Shown piece by piece: positions 23,498-44,925 of a stretch of DNA of 64,000 nt. This stretch comes from Thermococcus thermotolerans (GTDB taxonomy: Archaea > Methanobacteriota_B > Thermococci > Thermococcales > Thermococcaceae). Location: NCBI RefSeq assembly GCF_024707485.1, contig NZ_CP102602.1, positions 1,488,001 through 1,552,000 of the forward strand. The letters run 5' to 3'. Both the position numbers and the translations under genes were made by a program. Position 1 is the first letter of the stretch. Each line of letters opens with the position of its first letter. Below the pieces are notes generated by a model. It was not told the DNA's origin, searched no databases, and saw only the letters and a program-made list of their open reading frames with translations.

Positions 23498-26239
23498 TCA
23501 GCCGAGCCTCCTCTTCACTTCCTCAATAGCTTCCTCGGCCTTGAGCGGGTTCTTTATCTTGCCCTGCGCGAGCTCCTTCCTCCCACCGCCACCGCCGCCG
23601 GCGACGCTCGTTATAACCTTCGCAAGCTCGCCGGCCTTGAGGTCGAGGTTGTCCCCAACGGCAACGACGAAGTGGCCCTCCCGGCTTATGAGGACGACAA
23701 CCCTCTTCTCCTTCCTGAGCTTGTTTGCCGCCTCGCGTAGATCCTCCATAGTCCCCTCGACGACCTTGCCTATGAACTCAACGTCGCCGACCTTTTCGGC
23801 CTCGCTCTCAAGCTCGTAAACGAGGAGCTTCGCCAGCTCCTTCCTCAGCTTCTCCACCTCTTTCCTTGCTTGCTTCCACTCGCTGAAGAACCTCTCGGCC
23901 GTCTCTGGAACCTTCTCGGGCGGCACGCGGAAGACCTCGCTCGTTCTCTTCAGTATCCTCTCGGTCTCCTGCATCCAGTTGATGGCAGCTTCTCCGGCTG
24001 CAAAGATTATCCTCTCGACGCCGTCCTGTATGCGCTCGGTTCTGAGAATCTTAATCGGACCTATGAGTCCGGTGTTCGGCAGATGCGTTCCACCGCAGGC
24101 CTGAACGTCCCAGTCCTTGATGTTGAGAACCCTGATGATCCTTCCAGGAACGACTCCGCCCTGGTAGAGGCGGAAGCCGTACTTCATCTCGGCTTCTGTT
24201 CTCGGAAGCCACTCCCACTTCACGGGCCTGTTCTCCATGACGACGCGGTTGGCAAGGCGCTCGATTTCTCTGAGCTCCTCCTCGGTTATGCGTTTGTAGT
24301 GGCTTATGTCAAGCCTGGCCCAGTCGGTGCTGAGCTGAGAGCCAGCCTGCCAGACGTGCTTGCCGAGAACCCTAACCAAAGCGCCCATGAGGACGTGGGT
24401 TCCGGTGTGGTGGCGCATGTGCTGGATTCTCCTGTCCCAGTCGATCTTCCCGTGGACGGTCATGCCCTCCTTGAAGGCCTCGGGTTTATCAACGCGGTGG
24501 AGGATTACCTTTCCGACCTTCTGGACGTTGGTTACCCTCACTTCCGCGTCCCCCGCGGCGAGCACTCCGGTGTCGTAGGGCTGGCCTCCGCCCTCGGGGT
24601 AGAAGGCGGTCTGGTTCAGGATTACCCAGTCGTCTATGACCCTGAGAACCTCTGCATCGAACTCCTTCATGAAGGGATCCTCGTAGTAGAGCGTCCTCGT
24701 GTCGGGCAAATCTTTGACCAGCTCGAAGTCAACGACGTACTTGGCGGCCTCCTCTTTCGCCGTCCTCTCGGCGTCCTTCGCAACCAGGGTGTAGAAGTTG
24801 TCGGGGATGTGAACCTTAACCCCCTCGCCCCTGGCCACTTCCGCGACTATCTCCGGAGTTAAGCCGTGGCTCTCGTAGAACAGGATTAGCTTTTCGAGGG
24901 GTATCTCGTCCTTTCCTGCCTTCTTGAGCTTGGCAATCTCCCTCTTGACCAAATCGCTACCGCGCTTGAGCGTCTCGTGGTAGCGCTTCTCCTCGACGTT
25001 AATTATGTCAAGGATTACATCCTCCATCTCCTTGAACTCCGGGAAGGTTGGTGAGAGCTCCTTTATGTGCATGGCGACGATCTCAGCGAGCGGTGTCTCA
25101 AGCCCAAGCTCGCGGAGGTGCCTTATGCTCTTCCTTATGAGGAGCCTGGCCAAATAGCCGGCTTTAACGTTGGAGGGGATTACACCGTCGGCGAGCATGA
25201 AGGTCAAGGCCTTCGTGTGGTCGGCTATGGCATAGATGAGCTCGTAGGGCCTTACTGCCTTCTCAAGCTCCTCGACGCTTATGCCGACGCGTCTCGCGAC
25301 TTCCTGGCGGAGAACCTTGAGGTCACCCATGTCCTCGATGTCGAACATTCCAGCCAAGCGGGAGTTCTCCATGAGGATTCTCTCGTCTATCTTCTCTATT
25401 CCAGCGAGCTTCTTCAGCGGTTCAACGACGTAGCCGAGGACGGCATCGTAAGCCGTCGGCGTCCCCTGGCTCATCCAGACGAGCCTTTCAAGGCCGTAGC
25501 CTGTATCTACAACCCTCGTCTCCATTGGCACGTAGCGGTCGCCCTTTATCTCGACGACCTGGTCAGCTGGAGCGTTCTCCGGGGCTTTCTTGTACTGCAT
25601 GAAAACGAGGGTTGCAACCTCCAGACCGCGGTAGAGCACCTCGAATGCCGGACCGGCGTTTCCTCCGCCGGCCCACGGGTTCTCCTTGAAGGTTATGTCC
25701 TCGGGCTTCATTCCAAGGTCTTTCGTAAAGAACTCGAAGGCAAGTTCAACCGTCTCATCCATCCAGTATATCGGCTTCCCCGGATAGTTGAAGGCATGGT
25801 GTGCCATCATTTCAAATATCGTGAAGTGCCTGCCGGTTATTCCGACGTTGTCTATGTCGGTGAACCTTATTGAGGGCTGGCTTATGGTGAGCGGGTTCGC
25901 CGGCGGGTCGGCCTCGCCGCTTATGACCCAGGGCTGGAAGTCCATTATGCTCGCCCCAACGAGGAGGACATCATCGCGCCAGCGCGGTAAAACCGGGTAG
26001 CGCTTCACCCTTCCGTGGCCGTGTCTCTCGAAGAAGCTCAGGAACTTCTCGCGCATCTCCTCAAGGGTGTACCTCTTAGGTATGCCGGGCTTTCCTATGA
26101 AGGCGTACTCGTCACAGGGCGGGTCACCGCAGGTCTCCCTGTCCGGGTCGAGCGTCCAGAAGGGCTTGCCGCACACTTTACACGTTTTTCTTATCCATCC
26201 TTCCTCTTTAAACATCTCAGTGGTCATGTCCATGCTCAT
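23498..26239 (-). CDS. alaS: Alanyl-tRNA synthetase (archaeal type)
   Basis: 913 residues from ATG 26239 with GAGGTGA 5 bp upstream (an in-frame GTG at 26248 overlaps that site). An archaeal N-terminal zinc-binding segment, [18 protein letters not shown], precedes the class II catalytic core. The editing domain has [18 protein letters not shown], and the [13 protein letters not shown] stretch is its cysteine/histidine zinc site. The Gly-rich [17 protein letters not shown] near the C-terminus is typical of the C-Ala domain. Full length. It charges tRNA-Ala and removes mischarged Ser and Gly. Confidence 0.97.
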
Positions 26240-26296
26240 GATCCTCACCTCTTTAAACTGAAGTAGAAACGGAAGCGGGACTAATTAAAGTTTCCC

Positions 26297-26593
26297 TCAT
26301 TCTTTCGAATCAACTCCCAAATCAACATCGACATCCTCGAACTGTTCCTCATCTATAACAACAATTGGAATCTTAGCCTTCCGGAGAAACTCAATGAGTC
26401 TCTTTTCACGTTTCTGTATCATCTCTATCTTATGCCTCAGACTGGTGTTCTCTATGGCGAGTCTGTTGGCCTCATCAACCTTCAGTTTGAGCTGCATGCG
26501 GAGTTCGATTATCTCTTCCTCCAGCTCCCGAATCGAACGTTCGAGACGTTCAATCTCCTCCAGATACTCACGACAGATGCGCCTTCGTATCAT
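26297..26593 (-). CDS. Short coiled-coil protein, Thermococcales hypothetical
   Basis: 98 residues. About 5-75 is one charged coiled coil (YLEEIERLERSIRELEEEII and on), followed by AKIPIVVIDEEQFEDVDVDL. No family is known to me. The ATG lies only about 3 bp beyond the D box of the box C/D sRNA, so the sRNA occupies its leader. The integrated element has separated both from their original upstream DNA. Confidence 0.65.
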   Translation of the reverse strand: MIRRRICREYLEEIERLERSIRELEEEIIELRMQLKLKVDEANRLAIENTSLRHKIEMIQKREKRLIEFLRKAKIPIVVIDEEQFEDVDVDLGVDSKE

Positions 26594-26596: not shown

Positions 26597-26650
26597 GGTC
26601 AGCCCCGCGAAACCTCCTCACCGATCAGGGGGCTCCAGAGTCATCATCCC
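26597..26650 (-). ncRNA. Box C/D guide sRNA (intact, at the left attachment site)
   Basis: All four boxes are present with ideal archaeal spacing: C box ATGATGA (26641-26647), 12-nt guide CTCTGGAGCCCC (26629-26640), D' box CTGA (26625-26628), 4 nt, C' box TGAGGA (26615-26620), 12-nt guide GGTTTCGCGGGG (26603-26614), D box CTGA (26599-26602). Such RNAs, with L7Ae, Nop5 and fibrillarin, direct 2'-O-methylation of the target base paired five nt from the D or D' box. From memory, the D guide can pair over CGCGAAACC with a conserved archaeal 16S stretch (GCGCGAAACC); the D' target is not recognised. Its 5' half is the attachment site. Confidence 0.85.
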
Positions 26651-26852
26651 AATTTCCAATTAAGGACAAATTAGTGTTCTTTTTTAATATTCCAGCATGC
26701 TGAAGGGTCTCCTGACCATAAAGGCCAATTTTAAAGTGAATTTCCCTAATTAATGCCAATTCCAAAGTTTTTGATATATTTATGCCTAAGTCTTTAGCTA
26801 TTTTAAGTATTTCTTCATCTACCAGCACACTTGTCCTGACTTTTTTGCTCAT
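26625..26852 (-). CDS. Integrase N-terminal fragment, Int(N), ribbon-helix-helix-like
   Basis: 75 residues from ATG 26852, which has GAGGG 8 bp upstream; an ATG at 26867 in the same frame has no such site. KKVRTSVLVDEEILKIAKDL followed by INISKTLELALIREI is a ribbon-helix-helix-like N-terminus. The last codons read NWDDDSGAP across attL, and the stop is the TGA of the sRNA D' box. At attR the catalytic fragment reads DDESGAP in the same frame, so excision would fuse this piece in frame to the recombinase. That is the SSV-type suicide integrase arrangement. A stand-alone antitoxin-like protein is the alternative. Confidence 0.85.
   Translation of the reverse strand: MSKKVRTSVLVDEEILKIAKDLGINISKTLELALIREIHFKIGLYGQETLQHAGILKKNTNLSLIGNWDDDSGAP
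26627..26650. repeat. Left attachment site (attL core)
   Basis: A 24-bp direct repeat of 45888-45911 with one mismatch (26640 G versus 45901 C). It covers the C box, the D' guide and the first two bases of the D' box of the sRNA, and encodes DDDSGAP in the integrase frame. Sequence on either side differs between the two copies, as expected for a recombination core. Confidence 0.9.
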
Positions 26853-26869
26853 TTTAAGGTCCCTCATGT

Positions 26870-26891
26870 TAGTATATACCAGTATATACTA
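26870..26891. promoter_or_regulatory. Perfect 10-bp inverted repeat, likely operator
   Basis: TAGTATATAC, then CA, then GTATATACTA lies between the divergent Int(N) gene and the 91-residue RHH-like gene. It covers the region just before the Int(N) start and could overlap its promoter. Likely bound by the neighbouring RHH-like protein or by the integrase N-domain. Confidence 0.6.
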
Positions 26892-26977
26892 GTATTCAGA
26901 AATAGTATTTTAAGTTTTCTGCCTAACAAAAACTGTTAAATACAAACACAAAATAATCAACAATTAGGTGATGATAA

Positions 26978-27253
26978 ATGGCAGAGGAAAAGAAGACTCC
27001 AAGACACAATATCCAGCTTGATAATGAAACCTTTGAAAAACTAAACACCTTACAAACTAAACTCAAAGAGGCATTCAAGACAAGATATACTAAATCAGAA
27101 GTCATCTATGCATTGATTGAATATTTTAAACATAGTGTAGATACTGAAGAGCTTATAAAGTTCAAAAAGTTCCTGGATGAAGCAAAATTAAAGGGGAAGT
27201 CTGAAAAACAGACAGATTTAACAAGCATAATAGAAGACCTTAAAAAACTGTGA
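26978..27253 (+). CDS. Small putative ribbon-helix-helix/coiled-coil regulator
   Basis: 91 residues, ATG 26978 with AGGTGATGATAA upstream. RHNIQLDNETFEKLNTLQTK then RYTKSEVIYALIEYFKHS has the strand-helix-helix spacing of RHH DNA-binding proteins, with a charged tail. First rightward gene of the element, next to a palindromic operator. A copy-number or integrase regulator is plausible; no family name is assigned. Confidence 0.65.
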   Translation: MAEEKKTPRHNIQLDNETFEKLNTLQTKLKEAFKTRYTKSEVIYALIEYFKHSVDTEELIKFKKFLDEAKLKGKSEKQTDLTSIIEDLKKL

Positions 27254-27322
27254 ATAATTGCTTCTTATCTTTGTCTGTTTTTAGGATATTACACCCTAAG
27301 TGATATTTCTATTAATCTATTA

Positions 27323-27742
27323 ATGGGATACACATTGGAAAAGCAAAAAAATGCCATCAAGAGATTATCAAAATCATCAATCATAGTGTCAGTACAATAT
27401 AAAGGGAGAACAATTAAGAATGTTGTCATTAAAAAGGTTCACTTTGATGTAACTCACTCTACAATCAAGGTTTTCTTTAATGTTAAGGACATAGAAAAAC
27501 TCAAACTATATCAGGGGAAATGGAAATTAGTTTATCAATACAAATACAGTATCAGTGTATCATTATATCCTTGGAGGTCTGGATTGCAATTGACAATACC
27601 CTCAAAAATTGTAGAGTTTCTCAATATGAATGAAAAATTAGTTATAGGTATAAAAACACACCCATCAAAAAATGAGATACATTTCTTTTTGTTCCCCAGA
27701 AAAATTGAGAAAAAGCTTCTAAAGATTATAACAAGAAGCTAA
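27323..27742 (+). CDS. Unknown element protein with an AbrB-like C-terminal stretch
   Basis: 139 residues, basic. LQLTIPSKIVEFLNMNEKLV (about 95-115) resembles the beta-hairpin 'IPxxI...L' core of swapped-hairpin AbrB-type DNA-binding domains. Two leftward genes at 42.2-43.2 kb have a similar plan. ATG 27323 lacks a clear ribosome binding site and follows the previous gene by 69 bp. Function unknown. Confidence 0.6.
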   Translation: MGYTLEKQKNAIKRLSKSSIIVSVQYKGRTIKNVVIKKVHFDVTHSTIKVFFNVKDIEKLKLYQGKWKLVYQYKYSISVSLYPWRSGLQLTIPSKIVEFLNMNEKLVIGIKTHPSKNEIHFFLFPRKIEKKLLKIITRS

Positions 27743-27782
27743 CCACTTTCAACATCCCCATTACCCAAACATTTGCACAAAG

Positions 27783-27791
27783 TATTTTAAA
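27783..27791 (+). promoter_or_regulatory. TATA box of the BREX operon, with a short leader ORF
   Basis: TATTTTAAA lies about 60 bp before the brxP ATG. Downstream, a 25-codon ORF (27813-27890, MIETLRYSVTSINGG...) has AGGTAGGGG upstream and overlaps the brxP start in another frame. brxP itself has no evident ribosome binding site, so translation of the leader ORF could control entry to brxP. Speculative. Confidence 0.4.
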
Positions 27792-27849
27792 GTGAGAGGT
27801 AGGGGTATTTTCATGATAGAAACATTAAGGTACTCAGTGACCAGTATCA

Positions 27850-30246
27850 ATGGGGGCCAAAGACATGTATGGAGTCACATGGCACTTTGAATCTGGGGGT
27901 ATAAAATTACTAAAAAAGAGTCTTGGAGACATCTCCCCTGATATCAGACCAGTGTTTTGGGAGGAACTTGACCTCCTAGGATTTAATGAATTTTGGGACT
28001 ATCCTCACTCTAATGAACCTCTTCTATGGGCTGTTGGGAGAGACTATTATTATCAGGGCAGAATAGTTGCCAAAGCTGTTGGAGGAGGGTTCTTCCATAG
28101 ACCTAAGTTAAAGGTAATAGAAACTGACCTTGCTCTAGAACCTGTAAATCTGGAAGAAATGTTAAAGGTCAACAAAGAAGTCCTGGACAAATTAATAAAC
28201 TCTACATTAGATTCTATTAGAAACATCTATCTCACAAATAAAGATAAGGTTGACCTAATGGCTGTGTCTTTTAGTGGGGGCAAAGATTCTACTGTACTTC
28301 TTGACTTAGTCCAGAGAGTAGTTCCCCCAACAGAATTTGTTGTTATATTCAATGACACTAACATGGAGCTAAGCCCTACTTATGAGTATGTGGAGATTAT
28401 AAAAAGGAGATACAAAAATCTGAATTTTAGGACTGCAAAAACAGACTTACCAGCTCCTGAAATGTGGAGAAAGATGGGACCCCCTTCCAGGGTGCACAGG
28501 TGGTGTTGTAGTGTCTATAAATCTGCCCCCACAATTAAACTCATTAGAAAGCTAGTAAACAAGGATACCCCAATATTGTTGTTATTTGATGGTGTCAGAA
28601 GTGATGAAAGCCAGAGAAGAACTGCTCTAGGAAAGCTGTTAAAAGAGAAAAACACACTTACATCTCAAGGCAAATATCTCATACAGAGAAATGTACATCC
28701 AATTTTATACTGGAACTCTGCAGAAGTATACCTCTATTTGTTATACAGGGATATCCCCCTTAACAGGCTATACAGATTGGGTCTAAGAAGAGTAGGTTGT
28801 GCAGTATGTCCTTTTGCTTCTCCTTGGAAAGAAACTATAATGGGATTGGCATTTACTACTGAAATACAACCATATCTTAAGATAATTGAGGACTATGCCA
28901 GAAACAAAGGCATAAAAGATGAGTCTGAGATTAAAGAGTTTATTGAAAAAGGCTACTGGAAAATGAGAATAGGAGGAAATGACCTAAAGAGAAAGGAAAA
29001 GGTCATAGTATCAACTTCTAATGACAAGACTTCAATTGTTATCTCAGACCCCAATGAAAAATTCTTTGAGTGGGCCAAAACACTGGGGGATATGGTAATC
29101 TCAAAGAATACATTTGTTTTAAAAGTTGAGAGTGAGATATACAGGTTTAATTGGAAAGAAGACATCACTAAAAATCAATTCATCATTGAGTATGCTAACA
29201 AGGAGATATCAGAAAAGCTTCAAAACCTCATTAAAATAGTAGCTTACAAAACTTCTGATTGTGTTCATTGTATGGTCTGTGAAGCAGTTTGTCCCACAAA
29301 TGCTATTGACATGAGTGAAGGAAAAGTTAAAATTAACAAAGAAAGATGTACTCATTGCTATACATGTCTCACATTTACAAACAGAGGATGTCTTGCTTCA
29401 GATTCACTAAGAGTTGATATGGAGGTCAAAAGTATGAAGAAAGATAAAGGCTTTGGCAGGTATAAAGGCTTTGGCATAAGAACTGAGTGGATTAGGGAGT
29501 TCTTTGACACCACTGAAGACTGGTGGAGCTCTCATACTTTGGGTCCTGAGCAATTCAAAGCAATGAAGCACTGGCTAAATGAAGCTGAGATAATCAAAGT
29601 CCAAAAAGGTAAATACACTATAACAAAGTTAGGTAGAGCATTAATTTCAATTGGAAGCTCAGACCTGTTTACATGGGGCATTATCTGGAACAATCTAGCA
29701 AAGAATTCTCCTCTAATTAAATGGTATCTTGAAAATCTGAAATGGAAAAGAACATACACTACAGAAGACATCTTTAACATCCTAGGTGAAGAATATGCCC
29801 AGAGAACAAAAAAGAACATCCTCAGCTCACTAAGAGAGATATTTGATAAGAGCCCCTTGGGAACTAAACTTGAATTGGGCATAGTGCTAAAACAGAAGAA
29901 CAAAATGATAGGCATTGCCAAACCAGGCTTAAACTTTGGAAATCTCAGTGAACTTCAGATTCAAATGCTAATTCTGTACTCACTATATAGATATGCTGAA
30001 GCTACAGAGAGATACAGCCTGACTATCTCAGAACTTTATGATACCACTCTCCCTGAGGGTCCATACAAGGTATTTGGGGTAGAGAGAGAACAACTAGAGA
30101 AAATATTGCATGGCCTAAGTGAAACCTTTGGGCATGAATGGATTAGAGTTGAAATAATTGCTGACCTTGACAACATATTCCTTTCACCCCAGAAAAACAG
30201 TAAGGATATAATCAATATCTACAAAGAGATGAAACAGAAGGCATGA
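27850..30246 (+). CDS. brxP: BrxP: PAPS reductase-like BREX type 4 protein with ferredoxin domain
   Basis: 798 residues. The PP-loop SFSGGKDSTVLLDLVQRV (near 140) marks an N-type ATP pyrophosphatase of the PAPS reductase/DndC kind. Cysteines in HRWCCSVYK and RRVGCAVCPFASPW could bind an Fe-S cluster. CVHCMVCEAVCPTNAID plus CTHCYTC (about 470-515) is a two-[4Fe-4S] ferredoxin domain. The last 260 residues (FGRYKGFGIRTEWIREFFD onward) look like DUF4007. In BREX type 4 this protein stands where PglX methylase is in type 1; sulfur chemistry on DNA has been proposed but I cannot show it here. ATG 27865 is an alternative start. Confidence 0.88.
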   Translation: MGAKDMYGVTWHFESGGIKLLKKSLGDISPDIRPVFWEELDLLGFNEFWDYPHSNEPLLWAVGRDYYYQGRIVAKAVGGGFFHRPKLKVIETDLALEPVNLEEMLKVNKEVLDKLINSTLDSIRNIYLTNKDKVDLMAVSFSGGKDSTVLLDLVQRVVPPTEFVVIFNDTNMELSPTYEYVEIIKRRYKNLNFRTAKTDLPAPEMWRKMGPPSRVHRWCCSVYKSAPTIKLIRKLVNKDTPILLLFDGVRSDESQRRTALGKLLKEKNTLTSQGKYLIQRNVHPILYWNSAEVYLYLLYRDIPLNRLYRLGLRRVGCAVCPFASPWKETIMGLAFTTEIQPYLKIIEDYARNKGIKDESEIKEFIEKGYWKMRIGGNDLKRKEKVIVSTSNDKTSIVISDPNEKFFEWAKTLGDMVISKNTFVLKVESEIYRFNWKEDITKNQFIIEYANKEISEKLQNLIKIVAYKTSDCVHCMVCEAVCPTNAIDMSEGKVKINKERCTHCYTCLTFTNRGCLASDSLRVDMEVKSMKKDKGFGRYKGFGIRTEWIREFFDTTEDWWSSHTLGPEQFKAMKHWLNEAEIIKVQKGKYTITKLGRALISIGSSDLFTWGIIWNNLAKNSPLIKWYLENLKWKRTYTTEDIFNILGEEYAQRTKKNILSSLREIFDKSPLGTKLELGIVLKQKNKMIGIAKPGLNFGNLSELQIQMLILYSLYRYAEATERYSLTISELYDTTLPEGPYKVFGVEREQLEKILHGLSETFGHEWIRVEIIADLDNIFLSPQKNSKDIINIYKEMKQKA

Positions 30247-30337
30247 CTTCCCTTAATTTGACTTTATGAATCATCAAAAGGATTAAAAAGATGTTAAGGG
30301 TTAATCACCAAGAGAGCAAAAGAAGGGTGAAGGTAAT

Positions 30338-33300
30338 ATGGAGCCCCAAACATATGCTAAATACATTGAAATTGATGAAAATTTTGTAGCTGTTTTTGGA
30401 GAAGAAGTTGACAAGAAAAACAAAGACATGTGGAAAACATTCATACCCCATTCAAGATTCTATGAGATGTTATGGAAACTTCTTCCAAGTTTAAATAGAG
30501 AAGGGTCTGAACCTAAGCCATTGTGGATATTTGGTGCATATGGAACTGGAAAAACCCATGCAGCTTTTGTAATTAAACATCTATTATCAGATGACATTAA
30601 TGATGTTATGGGTTATCTCTCAAAATATGAGATACCCAGCAATTTAAGGGACAAACTGCTTGAGCTTAGAGAAAACAACAAAATCTTGGTGGTTTACAAT
30701 TATGGGTCAAGTGATATAACCTCTGAAAGAAAGCTTCTTCTTGTGTTGCAAGATAGAATCCAAAAAGAACTAAAGAGGATAGTCAAAGAACAAAATACTG
30801 ATAAGCCCTTCATTACAAAGACTGAAATTGAACTGCTAAAAGAAAGACTAGAAGATACAGTGATTAACTGGGATGAATTCATAAAAAAACATGAAGAATT
30901 CTATGAAATGGGAATTGAAAGCAAAGAGGATATCCTTGAGAAGTTAAACCAAGAAGAGATTGATATAGATTTTGTTGAGTATTTAATTGAATCTCTTGAA
31001 GAAGATGGAATAAGCCCATCCTCTAATAGATTCAATGTTGAGACTTTTGTTAACTGGCTAAAAGAGATATTTGAGAGTGGAATAGTGTCTAGGATAGTAT
31101 TCATATGGGATGAATTTTCAGACTTCTTTAACCAAGACCATCCTCCCTTGACAACACTCCAAAAACTTGCTGAGATTACAAAATCAATACCATTTTACTT
31201 GATTCTCATAACACATAGACATCCCAACCAGTTCAAAAGTGCCAGAGTAGATGACATTCAAAAAATCCAAGCCAGATTCAATCTTATTCACTATTACATG
31301 GAACCTGTGACAATCTATCAATTAATGTCAAATGTAATACAGCCAAAGAACTCTGAAGAATGGAAGAAATTTGTGAAACAACAATGGGAACAGTTATCAA
31401 TGTATTACTATCTTGAAGATGAAGTCATGAAGCTAATCTCTGAAGAGAAAAATGCAAATTTGAAGGATATGAAGAAACTATTCCCAATACATCCATACTC
31501 TGTTTATCTGGCAGCTAGGATTTCACAACATATTGGCTCATATCAAAGAACACTCTTTAAATTCTTGAAAGGAGGAGAAAAAGCTGAGACTGTATCCTTT
31601 AGAAAATTTATCAATGAATATCCAAAAGGGATGTGGTACCTCCTAACTCCTGACTTCTTATGGGAATATTTCTTTGTATCAAATGAGGGCATCCACATAT
31701 TCCACCAAGACATTGTAGAGATTATCAACTATTGGGATACATGGAAAGATAAATTATCAGAAGAAGAGCTAAAAGTGTTCAATGTCATAATGATGCTAAG
31801 TGCATTAATGAAGAGAGTTTCTTCTGTACCATTACTTAAGCCCTCTAGAGAAGCCCTTAAAGTGGCATTTTCCGGAACTCCCTTATATCTGAAGCTTCAA
31901 GAAGTTATTAATTCTCTAATGAAAAAAGGAATCATAGCAAGTATAGGGGATGAATTCATCTTACCTTACATGGGACAAATTGACATAAGCAATATTGAGG
32001 CACCAAGATTTAGTTTATTTATCAAAAACAATGAAGCTATTTTATCCAAGGTTAAACAATTAGTAACTTTAGGAAAAGAAAGACTCTCAGTCAGATTCAA
32101 TGCCAAAAATCAAGATATCCCTGTTATTCCAGTTGAAGACTTGGCACTTATGAGAACTCCAAATATCAAAAAAGAACCATATCAGTTGAATGTCATATTT
32201 GGTGTTATGAAAGAAGAGACCCCTCTTTCAGAGATTAAAGAAAAATTGACAAAGATAGCACAGAACTATCCAAATACTGTGTTCATTGTGTCACTATCTG
32301 AACTGGGTGACAAAAACTGGGAAGAAATAGAATTAAACTATAAACATCAGAAAGCACATGAGAAAGCAAATAGGTTTAAAGAAGCAGAGTACTTTAAGAA
32401 GAACATTGACTTCATTGTTGATAAGTGGATGAGCAACATTGAAAATGGAAGATTCCTTGTAGTTTCTCTACTTGAAAATGGCACTGAGAAAGAGTTGATG
32501 GTTGAAGATAACATTTACACAGCCAAAGCATTGTCCTCAGTTCTCAACTCAATTATAAAGAAAGTGTTCAATCATGGACTGGATGAATGGATTAAAAATG
32601 ACACTCTCTGGAGATATGAGAAAAGACCTGAAGCAATTATTAAAAGAACACTAAAAGCATTCCCCCAGCTTGGAAAAGGACAAACTAGAGAGATTTACAA
32701 TCTGCTGGTAGATACCTGGAGAATTGTGGATATACAGGGAGAGTTCATACCTGAAGAGTGCAACCCACAAAAAATACCAGTATGTGCAATGAGAAGAAGA
32801 ATCAAGGAACTATTCCCAGAGACTGAAGAGAGAGTCTCATTATTCCTGTTGTGGGATGAATTGACCAAACCTCCATTTGGGTTGTATCCTTCAAAAATTG
32901 GGGGGATAATATTTGCATTGTTATTAAAAGAATTCAGCAAAGGTTATTATTACACAGATGGAATAAATGATGGGGAGCTAGATGTTGGTACCTTGGGAGA
33001 TTTGATAACTGAAACAATTACTAAGAGGAAAGAATTCTTCATACAAAGACTAAGTTATGAGCAGAGAAGATTCTCTGAGTTATTAAAAGAGATTTTTACT
33101 TTGGATACAGAGTCAAAATATCCCAGAACAGCAATAATAGATGTAAGATTCAAAATCAAGTCCACATTGAAGTATCCTATATGGGCAATAAAATATGGTC
33201 CCTTCAAACTAACAGAGGAAGAAGAAGTCCTTATTGATGTCTTGGATTTTGTAATCAAAAATGAAGAAATTGACAAGCAGGGCACCCAATTACCCAAGGG

Positions 33301-34690
33301 AATTGAAGAACCAATCAAAGACATTGTATATACACTAGATGGACCTGCACAGGATTTAAAAGAAAAATTAAGATATGCCTCTAACCATCCAGAATATTAT
33401 CAGAAAGGATTCTTCAACTTCATACTCAGGAGCCTAACCTCTAATACAATAGAGGGGGAACTAAATAGTGAACAGGGACTAAAAAGAGCACAATTTTATC
33501 AGAAGCTTGAAGACAAAATAAGAGAACTTCTTCAGGAAGAGCCATGGGCATGGAGAGAAGAAGAAGTCAAAAAGGTAATCCAAATCCTTGAGTATGAGAT
33601 TCTTCTAACTAGAGAGCTCTCAAAAGTATTGCACATTAGCAAGGAAGTTATGTTCTTGGAGGACTTAATAGAGAACCTAAAAGAGAAACTACAAAACCTT
33701 GAACTGCTACCTCTCTGGATGTATGAATACCATCCCCAGCTAGTGGAGAAACCCAATCCAGACATCATAGCAATATTGAGAGCATTGTCCCAAATAGTAT
33801 CAATACAAGATGCAGTGAAGGTCAGACAGAAATTTGAATTTGGAATATTATATGAGAAAATCCCCCAAAATGCCAAACAAATTGAAGAAATATTAGATGA
33901 CAAAATGGAGGTTTTAAAATCTTGGGTATCAAGTAAACTAGGTGAAGAGATTGACAGAGAGATTCTCAATGAAATTATGGAAGAAATCAGAGGGATAGTC
34001 AAAGATAGGGGGCCAGAGAAAGTCAGTGAAGAAAGCCTTGTAATAAAAGTTAGAACTGTCATAACTAGGGCAAGGAAGACCAAAATAAAGAAAGAAATTG
34101 AAGACTCCCTCATCAAAATTATTGGCACAAGTGACATAAGAGAATTCCTGAGAACAAAAATGATTCCTGTTGAGCTAATTAAGTATCTTCCAGGAGTTCC
34201 TGAAAATGTGGCAAATAATGTTGAAAACTTAGTTAGAGCACTACTGGAATTCAGGAATATTGATTCAGAAAACAGGCTTACAGAGATAAAGACACTAATT
34301 GAGACATACTCCTCAGAACTCAGTCTTCTTTCTAAAGAAGACATACATTACAAGATTTTCAGAAGTTTCTTTGGGGAAGATTGGATTGAAGGACTGTTAA
34401 CTAAACATGACTTTGCAGATATGCTAAATGACATGAAACTCAAATTAGGGGAGAATGTGGAAAAATGGACAACAAAACAGATTAGAGACTTTTACAAAGA
34501 ATGGGTCAGGGAGAAATACAAGGAAGAAATGTATGATAGGATTCAACAGATAATTCATGCACTACCACCAGAAGAACTCAAAGAGCTTGTTACACTTATT
34601 ATCAAAGATGACCCAGGAGTTGGACTCAAAATTGCAAAATTAATTAGAAAGTATCAGGGTGAGTCAAATGGAGAATACTCTCAAAGTTAA
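30338..34690 (+). CDS. brxC: BrxC/PglY: large BREX P-loop ATPase
   Basis: 1450 residues. Walker A is GAYGTGKTHAAF (near 67) and Walker B is RIVFIWDEFSDFF (near 250), followed by ITHRHPNQF, as in the BrxC/PglY ATPase. The remainder is helical and charged, with no other motif I can name. GGGTGAAGG precedes the ATG. It is the second gene of the brxP-brxC-pglZ-brxL run and overlaps pglZ by 23 bp. Length is in the usual range (about 1200-1500). The only CpG I found in the element lies in this gene, at 31873. Confidence 0.88.
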   Translation: MEPQTYAKYIEIDENFVAVFGEEVDKKNKDMWKTFIPHSRFYEMLWKLLPSLNREGSEPKPLWIFGAYGTGKTHAAFVIKHLLSDDINDVMGYLSKYEIPSNLRDKLLELRENNKILVVYNYGSSDITSERKLLLVLQDRIQKELKRIVKEQNTDKPFITKTEIELLKERLEDTVINWDEFIKKHEEFYEMGIESKEDILEKLNQEEIDIDFVEYLIESLEEDGISPSSNRFNVETFVNWLKEIFESGIVSRIVFIWDEFSDFFNQDHPPLTTLQKLAEITKSIPFYLILITHRHPNQFKSARVDDIQKIQARFNLIHYYMEPVTIYQLMSNVIQPKNSEEWKKFVKQQWEQLSMYYYLEDEVMKLISEEKNANLKDMKKLFPIHPYSVYLAARISQHIGSYQRTLFKFLKGGEKAETVSFRKFINEYPKGMWYLLTPDFLWEYFFVSNEGIHIFHQDIVEIINYWDTWKDKLSEEELKVFNVIMMLSALMKRVSSVPLLKPSREALKVAFSGTPLYLKLQEVINSLMKKGIIASIGDEFILPYMGQIDISNIEAPRFSLFIKNNEAILSKVKQLVTLGKERLSVRFNAKNQDIPVIPVEDLALMRTPNIKKEPYQLNVIFGVMKEETPLSEIKEKLTKIAQNYPNTVFIVSLSELGDKNWEEIELNYKHQKAHEKANRFKEAEYFKKNIDFIVDKWMSNIENGRFLVVSLLENGTEKELMVEDNIYTAKALSSVLNSIIKKVFNHGLDEWIKNDTLWRYEKRPEAIIKRTLKAFPQLGKGQTREIYNLLVDTWRIVDIQGEFIPEECNPQKIPVCAMRRRIKELFPETEERVSLFLLWDELTKPPFGLYPSKIGGIIFALLLKEFSKGYYYTDGINDGELDVGTLGDLITETITKRKEFFIQRLSYEQRRFSELLKEIFTLDTESKYPRTAIIDVRFKIKSTLKYPIWAIKYGPFKLTEEEEVLIDVLDFVIKNEEIDKQGTQLPKGIEEPIKDIVYTLDGPAQDLKEKLRYASNHPEYYQKGFFNFILRSLTSNTIEGELNSEQGLKRAQFYQKLEDKIRELLQEEPWAWREEEVKKVIQILEYEILLTRELSKVLHISKEVMFLEDLIENLKEKLQNLELLPLWMYEYHPQLVEKPNPDIIAILRALSQIVSIQDAVKVRQKFEFGILYEKIPQNAKQIEEILDDKMEVLKSWVSSKLGEEIDREILNEIMEEIRGIVKDRGPEKVSEESLVIKVRTVITRARKTKIKKEIEDSLIKIIGTSDIREFLRTKMIPVELIKYLPGVPENVANNVENLVRALLEFRNIDSENRLTEIKTLIETYSSELSLLSKEDIHYKIFRSFFGEDWIEGLLTKHDFADMLNDMKLKLGENVEKWTTKQIRDFYKEWVREKYKEEMYDRIQQIIHALPPEELKELVTLIIKDDPGVGLKIAKLIRKYQGESNGEYSQS

Positions 34691-37091
34691 TTTTTCAGAA
34701 TTAATTCCTCTGCTCAGGGAAGAACAGGAACACCCATCATATCAAGGGTATCTTGGAGGTAGATTTCCAACTAAGATTATTTATACTGATGATTATTATA
34801 CCTATGTCCAAATTGTTAAGGGAATAACAGAAAAGTTTAACCCCATCCAAGTTCACTTGTCAGAATATTGTACAAAAAGAGACACTCTTCCAGATATCCA
34901 TAAAGCAATAACTGAAATTAAAGATGAACTAAAAAAAGGAGAGAACTCATTGCTACTGACTTCACTTAGTGAAGTTATCAGACTGAATAAAAGGAAAGGA
35001 ACTAAGGGTTACCACCCAGTGCATCTCCTGAGTAGGATACACTCAATTGAAGTTACCCCATATACCCAAAGCAGACTTTGGGTGGTTCTGTTTGGTGTAT
35101 CTTCTTTTGTGCAAGAATATTGGAAAAACTCACAAGATACAAGAAAAGTCCCTCCAATCTATGTGCCCCCAATTTTTCCAGAAGAAAAAAAGAAACCTAA
35201 GATTTGTATCACCAAAGACAACACAGTGATGACTTTAGCCCAAGACCTGGGAAAAAATAAAATCTTGCCTGTTACTGGATACAGAGAATATCTGAGTTTG
35301 TATGAAAGTATACCCTCTTTGGAGATGTTGATGTCAGCTAAAATTCTCTTAACAGGATCCAAGATACTATCTAAATACTTGGAAAAGGGAGACTTTCCTG
35401 GAATTGATATTGAACACATCTCTACATTAAAAGATGTTGCAGAGAAGATTCTGAGCATTAATATACCTTTTGAATATTCTCATGATGAGTTGAAGTTTTG
35501 GAAAGAGTTACTAAGAGAACTAAATAAGTTAAAGATTCCTGATATTGTGGAATACCTAAAAACAACATTCAACATAAAAGAGTTCTCATGGACCCATCTA
35601 CTGAAACAATGGAAATCAAGTACTGATTACAAGAGATGGTTAATCTTCAACTGGATGAGACTCAATGTAAACTTAATTGATAATCAATATCTTAAACTTG
35701 TACTGAACAACAAAGCTATCAATTATGCATCATTTGAAAAGAGTATTTGGGTATATCCTCTAGAGAGAAAACTAACACTAAACCTTTCTGAAATAAAAGA
35801 GAGGAAAGAAGTTATTATGTTAATGGACCTAACACCTCCTCAAGAATTCTTTATCTTGCTTGAAGATACAGATAACCCAATTCAAAAGTTATCAGTACTA
35901 CTTGGAACTAAAAAGGAAGATAAGATACAAATTATTCTATCAGTCAGAGATGCCATAAAGAGAGGTATCTCTTTAGAAAAGACACTAAGAATACTACAAA
36001 TAACATTTCCAGACCTTTATCATTACATTGCATTCATAAACAACCCAGAAATCCCTGAGAGAGTTCAAGAGTACTTTAGAGAATACATTCTCTCCAAAGT
36101 GTTGAATGAGCCAAGTGACAAACTTCTTAGACTTCAGAGGGAATTTAATAGAGATAATCTACATACCAAGTTCAAACACAGGAATTCTGTTATTTCTGAA
36201 CTATTGTCTCCACCAATAGTCTTTATTGATGGATTGGGGGTTGAGTGGAGTGGATTACTTAAGTGGTACTTAGAAAAACATTTCACTAATCATGATATCA
36301 GAATAACATTTGCAAAAGCTAGTATGCCAACTACAACTGAATTCAACAAGTTGCTAGGGGACAAGACAATAATTCTAACTAGAGACCTTGATATTGTGCT
36401 GCATAGTAAAGAATATCCAGAAAATATTATTGAGGAAATAGAGACAATCAAAGAGATAATACAAAACAAAATCTCCAAGCTAAAAGGCAAAAAATTCATA
36501 ATAACTTCTGACCATGGAGCCACCCAATTTAATGGGTACATTAAAGACAGGATTAAACTACCATCTTCAATTCAAGGACAGCATAAAAGAGATGGTAGAT
36601 ACTTTGTAATAACTGAAATTAATTCACTGGAAGATATTGATAATACACCAGAGTATTTAGTAGAGATAAAAGAAGACAAAAAAATATATTTGATATCCAG
36701 AACATATAAGGTATTCCCTGGTGGAAAAAGAAGTATCACAGAGACTCATGGGGGAGCCACCCCAGAAGAACTTATTGTACCAGTTATATTTGTCAGCCCC
36801 CTTTCAGAAGCTCCTGCAAAAGTTAGGGTTATGAAAAAAATAGTTAGACTTGTGAAACCTATATTAGAAGTGAAAATTGAAAGCCTATATGGTCTAAATG
36901 AAGTGATATTAAGAATAGATGGAAGAGACATAAAAGGAGAAACAAAAACAGGGAACTTATGGAAGTTCAATCTAAGAAAACTCAAACTTAGGCCTGGAAA
37001 GTACAAAGGAACTCTGATATCTGGAGATAAGAAAATTGGTGAAGTTGAATTTGAGATTAGGGGTGGTCTTGAAGAAGAAGAGTTAATTTAG
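34668..37091 (+). CDS. pglZ: PglZ: alkaline phosphatase-superfamily BREX protein
   Basis: 807 residues from ATG 34668 (AGGGTGA 5 bp upstream, inside brxC; a GTG at 34659 is in the same frame). The C-terminal half holds the PglZ-type metal-binding motifs: PIVFIDGLGVEW (near 517), IITSDHGATQF (near 612) and ETHGGATPEELIVPVIF (near 690). The order D, then DHG, then THGG matches the alkaline phosphatase fold of PglZ, the marker gene of BREX. A beta-sandwich-like tail ends in EFEIRGG. The overlap with brxC implies coupled translation. Confidence 0.92.
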   Translation: MENTLKVNFSELIPLLREEQEHPSYQGYLGGRFPTKIIYTDDYYTYVQIVKGITEKFNPIQVHLSEYCTKRDTLPDIHKAITEIKDELKKGENSLLLTSLSEVIRLNKRKGTKGYHPVHLLSRIHSIEVTPYTQSRLWVVLFGVSSFVQEYWKNSQDTRKVPPIYVPPIFPEEKKKPKICITKDNTVMTLAQDLGKNKILPVTGYREYLSLYESIPSLEMLMSAKILLTGSKILSKYLEKGDFPGIDIEHISTLKDVAEKILSINIPFEYSHDELKFWKELLRELNKLKIPDIVEYLKTTFNIKEFSWTHLLKQWKSSTDYKRWLIFNWMRLNVNLIDNQYLKLVLNNKAINYASFEKSIWVYPLERKLTLNLSEIKERKEVIMLMDLTPPQEFFILLEDTDNPIQKLSVLLGTKKEDKIQIILSVRDAIKRGISLEKTLRILQITFPDLYHYIAFINNPEIPERVQEYFREYILSKVLNEPSDKLLRLQREFNRDNLHTKFKHRNSVISELLSPPIVFIDGLGVEWSGLLKWYLEKHFTNHDIRITFAKASMPTTTEFNKLLGDKTIILTRDLDIVLHSKEYPENIIEEIETIKEIIQNKISKLKGKKFIITSDHGATQFNGYIKDRIKLPSSIQGQHKRDGRYFVITEINSLEDIDNTPEYLVEIKEDKKIYLISRTYKVFPGGKRSITETHGGATPEELIVPVIFVSPLSEAPAKVRVMKKIVRLVKPILEVKIESLYGLNEVILRIDGRDIKGETKTGNLWKFNLRKLKLRPGKYKGTLISGDKKIGEVEFEIRGGLEEEELI

Positions 37092-37102
37092 GAGGGACCC
37101 AA

Positions 37103-38557
37103 ATGCCAATGGACCCATTAGGAGAAAAAATCAGAGAAATATTTTATGAAGAGAGTGTATACAAAGACCCTCAAAAATCTAAGGTATTTTCATCTCTAAA
37201 TATACCCTCCTATCTAAGGGATTGGCTAGTTAAAAAATTCTCAGATGAAGAAGGAAATATTGACATTGAAGCTATCAGGGAGTTCATTAGAGAGAAAATA
37301 CCAAGGAAGGAAGATGCTCAAGTCCTTAAAGACAGACTAATAAACAAACAGGAACAAGTCTCTATTCTAGCAAAGATTGTTGTTGAAATTGATATAGCTA
37401 CAGGTGAAGCCCTCTTTCACTTACCTGAGTTAGGACTCCCTGAAAGAAAATATCAGGGAAGAGTGGAGAGATATCTAATACAAAAATATGGAGAAGAACT
37501 GCTATCTCTAGAAGGAGCCTGGGGTATTGTAACCCTGGACTGGAGAATTGAAAAAGTTCCTGGAAAATCAAAGGAAGAGGGAAGACTTGTATGTGTTGAT
37601 TTTAAACCATTTAGACCTTATAGGATTGATATTGACTACTATAAGGAAGCCAGAAGGGAGTTTTCAACAGAAGAATGGATTGATGTCTTGTTAAGGGCAA
37701 TGGATTACAATCCTGAGGGATTTATCTCAAAAAAAGCAAAGCTCTGGATGATAGCTAGACTTCTCCCATTTGTTGAAAAAAGAGTTAATCTTATTGAACT
37801 AGCCCCAAAAGGAACTGGTAAATCCTATGTTTACTCACAGTTAAGCAAGTATGGTTGGTTAATAAGTGGAGGTAGTATAAGCAGAGCCAAATTATTCTAT
37901 GATTTAAACAGAAGGAAACCAGGATTAGTGAGCAGATTTGACTATGTTGCCTTAGATGAGATACAGACAGTACATTTCCCAAACCCTGAAGAGCTCAGAG
38001 GGGCTCTTAAAGGATATCTTGAAAGTGGGGAGTATAGAGTTGGTAACCATAGAGGAGTTGGTGAAGCTGGATTCATCCTCCTAGGAAATATTCCCATTGA
38101 TTTCCAAGGGGAAAATAGGAAAGTATTCCTCACTCTTCCTGAGTTTTTCCAAGAATCAGCCCTCATTGATAGATTCCATGGATTCATTAAGGGATGGGAA
38201 CTACCAAGGATAAAAGAAGGCATGAAAGCCAGAGGATGGGCTTTGAATGTTGAATATTTCACTGAGGTCTTACATAGATTTAGAGATGATTTAACATACA
38301 GGGCCATAGTAGATAGCTTATTATATGTCCCATCTCATGCTGATAGCAGAGATGTAGAAGCAATAAAAAGAATTAGTACAGCATTCTTGAAATTGCTATT
38401 CCCCCATGTTGAGAGGCCAGAAGATGTGCATATTGATGAATTCAAAAAATACTGCTTAGACATGGCAATTGAGATGAGAGGGTTCATAAGAAAACAATTG
38501 CACATAATGGACCCAGAGTATTCACCTAATCTTCCAGAGATTGAAGTTATCTACTAG
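37103..38557 (+). CDS. brxL: BrxL: AAA+ ATPase of BREX, without an evident Lon protease domain
   Basis: 484 residues with GGAGG 9 bp upstream. NLIELAPKGTGKSYVYSQLS (near 230) is Walker A; RFDYVALDEIQTVHFPNPEE (near 277) is Walker B; GFILLGNIPID resembles the sensor 1 strand. This is the BrxL core, including the DPLGEKIREIF N-terminus. Longer BrxL proteins have a C-terminal Lon-like domain; here the protein stops soon after the helical lid at EIEVIY, so no protease domain is visible. It closes the four-gene type 4 BREX set. Confidence 0.88.
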   Translation: MPMDPLGEKIREIFYEESVYKDPQKSKVFSSLNIPSYLRDWLVKKFSDEEGNIDIEAIREFIREKIPRKEDAQVLKDRLINKQEQVSILAKIVVEIDIATGEALFHLPELGLPERKYQGRVERYLIQKYGEELLSLEGAWGIVTLDWRIEKVPGKSKEEGRLVCVDFKPFRPYRIDIDYYKEARREFSTEEWIDVLLRAMDYNPEGFISKKAKLWMIARLLPFVEKRVNLIELAPKGTGKSYVYSQLSKYGWLISGGSISRAKLFYDLNRRKPGLVSRFDYVALDEIQTVHFPNPEELRGALKGYLESGEYRVGNHRGVGEAGFILLGNIPIDFQGENRKVFLTLPEFFQESALIDRFHGFIKGWELPRIKEGMKARGWALNVEYFTEVLHRFRDDLTYRAIVDSLLYVPSHADSRDVEAIKRISTAFLKLLFPHVERPEDVHIDEFKKYCLDMAIEMRGFIRKQLHIMDPEYSPNLPEIEVIY

Positions 38558-38591
38558 ACTTTTCACCCATTACTTTGTACTTCAAAATGAG

Positions 38592-39178
38592 TGTAACCCC
38601 CTGTGGTTACAATGGTTACATCCCAGAAATCATTCTGTTGGCTGAATAGAGCCTTTACAAGCCCCCAATAACTGCTGTTTTCATTAGAGATTACATCCCT
38701 CTCCTGTCTCTGATAGCCTAACAGAGCTTGCTCCTGCCTGCTATATGTAACTTTGTAACCACAACTTTGGAATTAAATTTTAATTTTTCATTTTTCCTTT
38801 ATATTTATCAAGGGTTAATACAACTATGTAAAGAAAATTGATGCAACTCAATTGAGGTTACATTGGTTACAATGGTTACAATTACCAGATTCCTCTTTTT
38901 GTTGAAAGAAGGCACAATAGAGCTTTATTTGGCAAAAGAATGAAATGGCTTGAGAGGACTTCATTGGCACAAAAGAAGGCAGGAGCTTGCTGTAACCATT
39001 GTAACCAATGTAACCACAAGGGGTTACAGCAGTTTTTGATACAATTTTTGCAAATCCCTTTTTGCAACAAGAAAAATTGTCATTTTTTGCAGTTTTAGGG
39101 TTTGAAGTCACAACTAGAAAGTATTGTTCAAGCTGTGGTTACACTTGGTTACACCCAAAAAAGTTTGAGGTTGTAACC
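38592..39178. repeat. Iteron array, likely replication origin of the element
   Basis: The 640-bp gap between brxL and the PrimPol gene has at least 14 copies of GGTTACA or its complement TGTAACC. Clusters include 38605/38614; 38856/38865/38874 (period 9); 38991/39000/39009 (period 9, opposite strand) with 39022; 39137/39147 (period 10); and singles at 38592, 38754 and 39172. The two period-9 triplets are inverted relative to each other, 110 bp apart. An AT-rich stretch (38766-38800) lies between clusters. Repeats beside an initiator gene point to an iteron-controlled origin. No other gene is convincing here. Confidence 0.8.
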
Positions 39179-39197
39179 AAAAAGAAAAGTGATGGGG

Positions 39198-42100
39198 TTA
39201 AATTCTCTTGACCTTGAACACTGGAACTTCTGAGTTCTTGAGCACTGAGGATAGTTCAGTACCCATGAGTTCTATGTGTCTCCTGAACTTGGTTAACAGG
39301 AGTTCCTTAACTCTCTCTGCAACTTCCTCTTCATCATTGACACTTATTCTGGTGAGGAGGAGTGCAATGAACCTGTCAAAGCTTATTGACTTCTCATTCT
39401 TAAGCTCCTTGAGGAGCTGGTAGACCTCTTCCCTCAACTCTTCTTCATCAACCCCTCTCATTCTTGTGGCTTTTGAAAGATTCACAACAAGGGCTTTGAT
39501 GACCTTGCCTTTGATTCTGACAGTCTTAACCCTTGCAACATCATTGTACTTGCTATTGATTACCCTTTCAAGCTCTCTCAGACTCTTAATTTCTTCAAAT
39601 AGGGTGTTGTTCTCTCTGAGTATCTTGAGTGCTGAGCTGGTAACAATTAGTTCTCCATCTTCTGTCTTCTTGATGAAACTTGAGTTTTCCAACTTTTCAA
39701 GCATGTCATCAACATAAATTAGCATTTCTGAAACATCATCCTGTTGTGATTCTATCTCCCCTATGAGATTTGCAGTGTTCTCCAGTACCCTATCAATCCT
39801 CTTGACAAGTTCCATTTTGTTGTGCTTCTCTGCAATGACTCTGAGTAGGATTAGTCCCTGCCAAATCTGACTGTAGAGCTTTAGCCTTCTGGAGTGTATG
39901 TCTGTTAAAACATCCCTCATTTTCTTGTAATACATTTTAGCATACTCTGAGAAAGTCATTTTGTACTGGTTCATTATTGAGAGCACTTCATCAAGCATAT
40001 AGTACCCTGTTCCCCCAGTGATTTCTTCAATCAGGTCTATTGTTTCTTCATCTGTGAAGACATATGCTTTCTCTTCCTCATTACTAAGCTTAATCTGGAT
40101 AATCCTATCCTTGAATGCTTCATCATTTGTAACAAATCTGGTATTGCTGGTAACAAAGAGTGTGGCTCTGAGGTCTATGCTGACTGTACTGAGGTCTGCC
40201 CTGCCCCTGCTGATTGATTTAACACCAGTCAAGTAGGATTTTATGAAATCTCTTAGATTGTTGTCTATTTCCCTTGATGACACATCATCAAGCACAATTG
40301 GGAGTGTGGCCAGGCTAAGTGCACTAACAATTCTGAAGTTGCTTTTAGCTTCTTGGATTGAGAGCTTCTTTATTGCAAAGAGTTTCTCTGAGATGAATTC
40401 CATTAGGGTTGATTTTCCCAATCCTGGTTCCTTGCTCCAGACCCAGATAAGGGGCTTCAATCTTAGCTCATTGTTGAAGAAGCTACTGAATAAGGCCCCT
40501 GATACCACTGCAAAGAGCTTGTCATCCCTGATTCTGTTGAAGACTTCCAATGCCTTTTCTATATCTTCCTCTGATACTTTTTCTTGGTAATTTCTGACAT
40601 CTGAGACACTGTATGTCTCATTATAGAATTCTGTGGCATTGTGAGTGTATTTCTTCTTCTCTTCATTCCATTCTACTTCAAAGACTTCTGATACCTTGGT
40701 TATCTTAATTCTGTAATATCTGATGAGTATGTCAAAAACTGCCTGAAGTATGGTCTCTATTTGCTGTTTTGACTTCATTCTAACAAGGGGTGAACCATAC
40801 AAGTACTCTGCTATCCTTCTGAGTGGGGCTTGCCTGAATTCCTCATTTGTGTATTCTGATTGGATTTTGACTGTGTAAAGCCACTCACTTGTTTTCTTCA
40901 TATCATTTCTCTTGACTATGACTTCCTTCAGGATGATTCTTGCCTTGATGAAGTATTCTCTACCTACTAACTGGTCCCCTTCATCATTCTTCTTGTACCA
41001 GGCAAGGGCTATGCTATCCCTGTAAACTTCAACATCCATTATTCTTCCCTTGTTGCTGATTCTGACCCTTCCCAGGAACTTTCTGTTGTAGGTTTGACCA
41101 TGTTTCTTAAGTAACTCAATTATGTCATTTTTGAGCTTTATTATGACATCCTTTGCTTCTGAGAGTTCAATTTTGTTGGCTGAAGCAAACTGACTGAGTC
41201 TTCTATCCTCAAGTAGTTCTCCTTTGTCATTTTGTATAAAGAAGAAGCTAACTGTTGCTATTTTATCCCTACCCTCCTCTTCAGCCTTTTTTGTAATGGA
41301 CTTCACAATGCTCATTCTTTGTTTGTACTCCTCATCACTCAAGAGATTGATGAGTTCTTCTGTAATATAGTAAAGTTGTTCCTCAGTGATTCTTGTATAT
41401 TTGTATATTGTTGCCAGTGTGAAGAACAAGAGGTTGTGTCTTGTCCCAATTGCATAATAATCTTTGATGATGAGGTAGATTTCCTTTGCTATACTGTCCA
41501 ACTTCTCTTCTTCCAAATCAACAACTTCTTCTTCCTCATACTGTTTTTCTGTTCTTGTTTTGGCCTTCTTTTTCTCTTCAAGCTCCTCTATGAGCTTAAT
41601 TATGACTTCTTTCTTTGCTGTTTCATCTGTTTGGTAGATAATCTTTGCCTGTTGCTTTGACTCTTGATTTATGCTCCAGGGGATTCTGATTATTCTAGCA
41701 AAATCATATATGTTGTCTGCCTTGCAATCAGTACCCTCAAACAGCTCTGCCAGGGCTGAGAGTCTCTTGTATTCCCCCTCTTTTAGGGGTGTGTTAAGTA
41801 GTATCTTGATATGTATTCCCCTACCAGAGTGAATTACTGTATATGGTATTCCCCTCTTCTTGAGCTTCTCTTCAAGTAGTGGAGCAATTTTTGTGTTCAA
41901 TTCCTTCATTGTGATAGTCTGGTGTTCTCCCTTATCCAAATCAATATAGGTGACCCTGCTCTCCTTGAGGGCATACTTTTCCTTCCTCTGCTTCTCCTTG
42001 TAGATGAAAATGCTGTGGTAGATGTTGTATTTTTCAAGGTTTTTCATTATCCAGTTCTTGATTTTCTCTGGCTCTTCTTTGAGTTCTCTGATTGTGAAGT

Positions 42101-43160: not shown

Positions 43161-43174
43161 GACCAGCCACCCCT

Positions 43175-43660: not shown

Positions 43661-43699
43661 GGCAACCACCTCCATCACCAATCTTCATTTTTATAATAA

Positions 43700-43714
43700 T
43701 ACAAAAAGTACTTA
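43700..43714 (-). promoter_or_regulatory. Element promoter motif, copy 1
   Basis: Minus-strand TAAGTACTTTTTGTA, about 40 bp before ATG 43660, with TTATAAAAA just downstream. It matches 44146-44160 in 14 of 15 bases. A shared promoter or regulator site of the element. Confidence 0.45.
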
Positions 43715-44116: not shown

Positions 44117-44145
44117 AACTCATCACCTCCTTCATTGTATAATTG

Positions 44146-44160
44146 TACAAAAACTACTTA
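44146..44160 (-). promoter_or_regulatory. Element promoter motif, copy 2
   Basis: Minus-strand TAAGTAGTTTTTGTA, 30-44 bp before ATG 44116, preceded by a TATA-like CTTTTTAAG. It matches the site at 43700-43714 with one mismatch. Confidence 0.45.
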
Positions 44161-44263
44161 AAAAGTTAATCATTATTTCAAACATTTGTGTACAGTAGTG
44201 CATCAATAAAACACCAAAAACATTATAAACTTTTTATTGGTATCCTTGTTGAGGGGATTGGCC

Positions 44264-44909: not shown

Positions 44910-44925
44910 CAGAAATTAAGAACAA

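Follow-up and report, generated by a model that had tools for sequence, protein, structure and literature searches.

A 19.3-kb mobile element in Thermococcus thermotolerans very probably uses the 5' half of a C/D box guide RNA gene, sR23, as its attachment site. Integration there would split the integrase gene of the element, rebuild sR23 and displace the sR23 promoter, and C/D genes appear to be used in this way recurrently. The element lies in a 64,000-nucleotide stretch of DNA, hereafter the window, and was compared with 94 genomes of the order Thermococcales. Integration into C/D sRNA genes recurs in this order: at least two types of integrase target sR23 and another targets the gene of a second guide RNA, sR55, so that the case extends past the single site from which it was first read.

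The sR23 gene stands at the left junction of the element (26597-26649, minus strand). It matches the Rfam family RF01138 over its full length, with 74.1 bits (gathering score 45) and model positions 1-54 all aligned, which bears out the sequence-only reading that the target is a C/D sRNA gene. Read along the minus strand, the gene consists of GG, the C box ATGATGA (26647-26641), a 12-nt D' guide (26640-26629), the D' box CTGA (26628-26625), a 3-nt spacer, the C' box GTGAGGA (26621-26615), a 12-nt D guide (26614-26603) and the D box CTGA (26602-26599). The spacing of 12 nt for both guides is as first described. The boxes had also been called perfect; this is true of C, D' and D, whereas the C' box is one base off the usual consensus RTGATGA.

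The element is bounded by a 24-bp repeat. The left copy, attL (26627-26650, minus strand), spans the C box, the entire D' guide and the first half of the D' box of sR23, and the right copy, attR (45888-45911, minus strand), is a truncated sR23 that comprises positions 1-23 only (24.6 bits); both had been proposed from the letters of the window. The 21-bp core of the repeat occurs twice in the window and in none of 100 shuffles. Over 24 bp the two copies show a single mismatch, at the first base of the D' guide, which is C on the left (26640) and G on the right. Both attR and the empty site of the relative G071, described below, carry G; the C of attL was brought in by the element, and the crossover lies deeper inside the core. 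At 84 sites of other genomes this base is G in 68, A in 11 and C in 5, a natural variation that supports the earlier view that the mismatch is harmless.

We found sR23 in 90 of the 94 genomes, the searches giving no match in the remaining four (G036, G054, G069 and G081). The 21-bp core, with at most one mismatch, is present in 85 of the 94, in a single copy everywhere except in G000, which has two copies; among the other 93 genomes the site was found in 84, once per genome. The empty site sought by the sequence-only reading, with the sRNA lying between both host flanks, was found in G071: the right host flank joins the core (64 bp at 98%) and the core joins the left host side (228 bp at 92%). 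A conserved sRNA thus exists at this locus in relatives. G071 is empty at the junction, though not across the whole region, because it carries two insertions of its own near sR23. One of them, of 1.46 kb (L063 8411-9874), lies just upstream of the sR23 promoter and contains a TnpB-like gene, recognized by eye from its translation; the other is about 5.2 kb downstream. As a separate observation, G069, listed as 99% complete, was searched twice without a match to sR23. It may have lost the gene or have a gap in its assembly, and sR23 may therefore be dispensable.

The host genes around the element point to the same site. Directly downstream of sR23 is a conserved neighbour, a 98-aa coiled-coil-like ORF (26297-26593, minus strand), whose position relative to sR23 is about +56 in most relatives. 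It is followed by a host gene conserved in synteny (23498-26248, minus strand), which we take from its translation to be alaS, and on the far side of the element stands a host gene (46144-47718, plus strand) that presumably encodes a sodium:amino-acid symporter-like protein, again judged from its translation. Of 50 sR23 loci in 49 genomes, 12 combine a symporter within 300 bp upstream of sR23 with the 98-aa ORF at about +56, and alaS comes next in 9 of these 12. This order is the arrangement predicted for the site before insertion. In two genomes (G070 and G068; loci L021 and L079) the 98-aa ORF is some 0.9 kb away from sR23, something having been inserted on the 3' side.

The integrase is of the split, SSV-like kind, as first proposed, with parts at both ends of the element. 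The N-terminal fragment (26625-26867, minus strand) is 80 aa long, has a CcdA-like ribbon-helix-helix domain (Pfam PF07362, 32.3 bits) and ends at a stop codon that is the TGA of the sR23 D' box. The C-terminal part (44926-45927, minus strand), element-encoded from the core at 45911 inward, holds the catalytic domain (Pfam PF00589, 59.7 bits). Joined across the core, the two parts form one open frame of 400 aa with no internal stop. Pfam, PDB and NCBIfam sequence searches all agree on a tyrosine recombinase. Enzymes of this family share the catalytic motifs R..KxxR..H..Y, and alignment with relatives shows the set to be present here as TGMR, KDLR, GHKG and QNYL. Just upstream of the N part, a repeated palindrome-like sequence, GTATATACTGGTATATACT (26870-26895), is a possible operator for its ribbon-helix-helix domain.

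The closest relatives of this integrase are 24-34% identical to it. In all 13 that were inspected (L034-L046), tRNA gene sequence occupies the corresponding region, and the matched parts of the best-matching tRNAs of most relatives (L113, L114, L115) are 3' halves. One tRNA-targeting relative, L038, also has a CcdA-like N-terminal domain. At 15 loci around relatives L034-L048, Rfam and ARAGORN detected no whole tRNA or C/D gene, the tRNA parts being truncated. In the att region of the window integrase no tRNA match was found, and sR23 stands there instead; no tRNA gene was found anywhere in the window either, and insertion into a tRNA gene was rejected. With tRNA sequence in 13 of 13 inspected relatives and sR23 here, the window integrase belongs to a group that targets tRNA genes but has itself a guide RNA gene as its site. 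Scans of plasmid, phage, viral and other genome collections, which can detect close integrase relatives only, found none, and we therefore treat the window element as a single case. It is present in just one genome of the 94, and the sR23 core had 0 matches in viral contigs.

Taken together, these features suggest how the element would have entered. Within its integrase gene, the free circle would have 24 bp that correspond to the C box, the D' guide and half of the D' box of sR23, and the encoded tyrosine integrase would recombine these with their counterpart in the host sR23. Integration would split the integrase gene, with an 80-aa DNA-binding N part at the left end and a catalytic C part at the right, rebuild a complete sR23 on the left from a 5' half of the element and a 3' half of the host, and leave the host sR23 promoter at the right junction. 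The precision of the restoration would then reflect selection for a functional sR23. The sequence of sR23 is indeed restored with an element-supplied 5' half, as the sequence-only reading held: the copy is complete on the left and truncated on the right, and G071 provides the empty site. One could suppose that the element came in elsewhere or by homologous recombination and that the repeat is secondary, given that it occurs in a single genome and that its integrase is without a close relative. However, repeat, split frame and empty site agree to the base, and the architecture is that of the tRNA-targeting relatives, of which L038 shares even the CcdA-like domain. Such an entry is already disfavoured and, in our judgement, highly improbable.

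The integrated DNA itself (26651-45887), delimited by the repeats and by the empty site in G071, has a G+C content of 0.361, against 0.54 and 0.51 in the flanks. Its cargo includes a BREX operon on the plus strand (27850-38557) that looks complete, with brxP (27850-30246; PADLOC BrxP, 854.7 bits), brxC/pglY (30338-34690; BrxC, 310 bits), pglZ (34659-37091; PglZ, 187.3 bits) and brxL (37103-38557; BrxL, 719.7 bits, with Pfam BrxL domains) in order. From this gene set we take the system to be of type 4. Gene set and order are those of the known BREX type 4 systems; being the cargo of an archaeal integrative element sets this one apart, and it is otherwise ordinary. A 1030-aa protein (39198-42290, minus strand) may act in replication, to judge from a sub-threshold Pfam match to DUF5906 (18.3 bits).

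A second type of element uses the same gene. It is about 16.9 kb long and occurs in two genera, in G016 (L134 726-17600) and G001 (L133 1018-17906), where it is bounded by a 15-bp repeat, TGGGATGATGAGTCT, and a complete sR23. G040 provides a precise empty site for G016: the flanks align at 91.6% as far as roughly position 15 of sR23, and from sR23 onward at 96.1%. This element encodes a different integrase together with an MCM helicase, HsdM, HsdS, HsdR and GmrSD. Counted from the ATG in the C box, the integrase has 714 aa, in a frame that opens ATGATGAGTCT; the C box could thus serve as its start codon (ATGATG), and the gene is not split. The identity of 97-99% between the two copies of this restriction-modification element, across genera, points to a recent transfer.

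In a third genus, G076 retains a deleted copy, a 2.4-kb remnant at sR23. Its rebuilt sR23 begins GATGATGA, whereas its attR begins AATGATGA, a start shared by 10 of the 12 genomes of its genus that have a match, which provides a second marker of an element-derived sR23 5' end. The DNA upstream of sR23 in G026 and G073 resembles the end of the second element, and these regions look like scars of it. We screened the 94 genomes for partial copies by searching for GRATGATGANTCT on the same strand and contig, up to 20 kb upstream of sR23, and obtained five genomes (G000, G001, G016, G076 and G052). In G052 the additional match to the start of the core falls within a coding frame and was dismissed as due to chance. 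The two sR23 integrases are placed apart in the tree and come together in 4% of 200 bootstrap trees. A single origin of sR23-targeting integrases thus finds no support in the bootstrap, yet the AU test does not reject it (p 0.0855), the branches being long.

Two sRNA families, sR23 and sR55, were examined for insertions. The sR55 C/D sRNA is present in 85 of the 94 genomes. When seven loci with distant integrases were screened for RNA genes, two had the integrase directly upstream of sR55, and the other five gave no C/D sRNA match. In G044, 12,259 bp separate an 18-bp sequence, ACCGATGAGGAGTGTCAT, from a complete sR55 that opens with the same 18 bases, and G033, contiguous at sR55, offers the corresponding empty site (84% and 87.7% on the two sides). 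The G044 element encodes McrBC and a 421-aa integrase that scores just under the Pfam cut-off (26.3 vs 27.1). Another element likely sits at sR55 in G058, where one contig has a truncated sR55 of 21 nt followed by a 458-aa ORF with no Pfam match (together L207 9854-11465), and a second contig has the whole gene (L208 1282-1340). In G026 an integrase homolog is found directly upstream of sR55, and host homology with G029 begins at sR55 +5; about 51 kb of upstream sequence yielded no second repeat, and G026 was left out of the cases. The use of the same half of C/D genes by different integrases suggests that the 5' half is favoured as a target, perhaps for its high conservation.

Exchange of the 5' half has a consequence for expression. 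We built a BRE/TATA model from 34 non-redundant native sR23 upstream regions (45 before near-copies were removed; leave-one-out median 10.4), excluding four upstream regions that proved to be element or scar. The native sR23 promoter, with the BRE/TATA sequence GGGTAACGTTATTA (45935-45948, minus strand), is now stranded upstream of the integrase C part. It scores 14.2, a value reached by a fraction of 0.000 of random stretches, and sits 39 nt upstream of the GATGATGA motif. Near the rebuilt sR23, the best promoter-like site (26682-26695, minus strand) is weak: 5 of the 34 native sites score as low as its 3.1, and 15-22% of random stretches score as high. A candidate integrase promoter (26908-26921, minus strand) is found 273 nt ahead of the GATGATGA motif; it scores 10.2 bits, and sites this strong occur in the element about 0.5 times per kb and strand. 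The sequence-only reading had assumed the same logic as at tRNA genes. Restoration of the RNA gene does follow that logic, whereas the promoter fares differently. At the tRNA genes targeted by the relatives, element and host have the 3' half in common and the tRNA retains its promoter; here the 5' half is exchanged in every case and the sRNA is thereby separated from its own promoter.

At the second type of element, the element-side promoter at -39 scores 14.5, 14.5 and 13.2 in G016, G001 and G076; the host side of attR is less clear (9.8, 4.8 and 8.8 in the same genomes). Compared with 3.1 in the window, these values indicate that the second type swaps in an equal promoter, whereas the window element does not. 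Because the promoter of the window element is weak, sR23 is probably made in this strain by read-through from the integrase promoter. This is plausible since, according to one review, most archaeal C/D sRNA genes can do without a dedicated promoter and more than half of them overlap an end of an adjacent gene (PMC7994747). Lacking a native-like promoter at the left junction, sR23 may also be under-expressed or silent in the window strain.

The integrases might simply recognize conserved DNA that by chance falls inside an sRNA gene, the function of the RNA having no part in the choice or the restoration of the site. The block formed by the C box and the D' guide, found in 85 of the 94 genomes, would be a good target by itself, and neither the weak promoter of the rebuilt window gene nor the want of a target for the D' guide speaks for a functional requirement. 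However, different integrases pick the same half of sR23 and another picks the same half of sR55, and the upstream DNA brought in by the second element type has a promoter spaced as in native genes (14.5 at -39), as selection for a working gene would predict. We consider it unlikely that conserved DNA explains the pattern by itself, and favour selection for a working sR23 as the reason for its restoration.

The D' guide gave no convincing match in the 16S and 23S rRNA of the genome, and its exact target strings occur in no RNA gene, being found only in coding-like DNA or att sites. A search for a published target retrieved no open-licence paper naming sR23 together with Pyrococcus. The guide itself (26629-26640) is nearly invariant in the order and stands as an orphan guide under strong constraint. 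Could the element instead control or alter sR23 for its own benefit, through the new promoter and the new 5' guide arm? The promoter is exchanged every time, the first D' guide base is changed from G to C in the window, and in G016 the host promoter now immediately precedes the integrase gene, which has its ATGATG start within the C box. Against this, the altered base is the one that varies naturally among the 84 sites, and a D' guide target through which a benefit might act was not found. Such a hijacking seems improbable, even more so than a response to conserved DNA, and restoration of a working guide RNA by the integrase reaction is the reading that we retain.

The window element shares with SSV-type (type I, 'suicidal') integrases a tyrosine integrase with attP in its own gene, which is split on integration, a direct repeat and the restoration of a conserved RNA gene; the 13 relatives at 24-34% identity have the SSV-type form of the att region. 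It departs from them in its site, sR23 instead of the usual tRNA gene. According to the accessible parts of a review of archaeal tyrosine recombinases, an att site in a tRNA gene is usual though not strictly defining for SSV-type integrases, and the targets listed are tRNA genes, intergenic regions and protein genes; a term search of the review gave no match for sRNA or snoRNA as a target (PMC8371274). In the pT26-2 plasmid family of Thermococcales every attB overlaps the 3' end of a tRNA gene, as far as the available text describes them (PMC6972569), whereas here the 5' half of sR23 is used and the promoter is exchanged. Splitting and regeneration of the target, with a displaced fragment at the far end, is described for other elements (PMC4383910, PMC12424338, PMC12884075) and is the same here. 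The sites named in the passages available from PMC12884075 are tRNA and tmRNA genes, intergenic regions and protein-coding genes, with no guide RNA (0 matches for snoRNA or ncRNA). The dusA islands, in the passages available, integrate at the 5' end of their target gene as our elements do; unlike sR23, their target is protein-coding and they are bacterial (PMC4482086). Within the searchable portion of the open-licence (PubMed Central) literature, we found no earlier description of integration into a guide RNA gene. The integrases are thus of a known kind, and what is new is the class of target, an exchange of promoter unseen at 3'-half tRNA targets, and the recurrence in three genera and at two sRNAs.

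Guide RNA genes widen the range of RNA genes known as landing sites of integrases, and are used by different integrases at junctions that are exact and testable. Where a tRNA gene is the target, restoration of the RNA goes together with retention of its promoter; here the two are separated. Att sites of this kind exist in nearly every genome of the order, and such insertions may explain defence cargo (BREX, type I restriction, McrBC) found beside small RNA genes. That C/D guide RNA genes form a general archaeal class of integration site beside tRNA genes, with integrases that cut inside the 5' half and so exchange the promoter and part of the D' arm each time, is a tentative extension which we hold to be possible, with the odds still leaning against it. 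If it were true, mobile elements would carry pieces of guide RNA genes between species, and the timing of guide RNA synthesis, and possibly the methylated base, could change. The window also holds a second C/D sRNA gene, snoPyro_CD (55596-55651, 49.1 bits), which seems ordinary.
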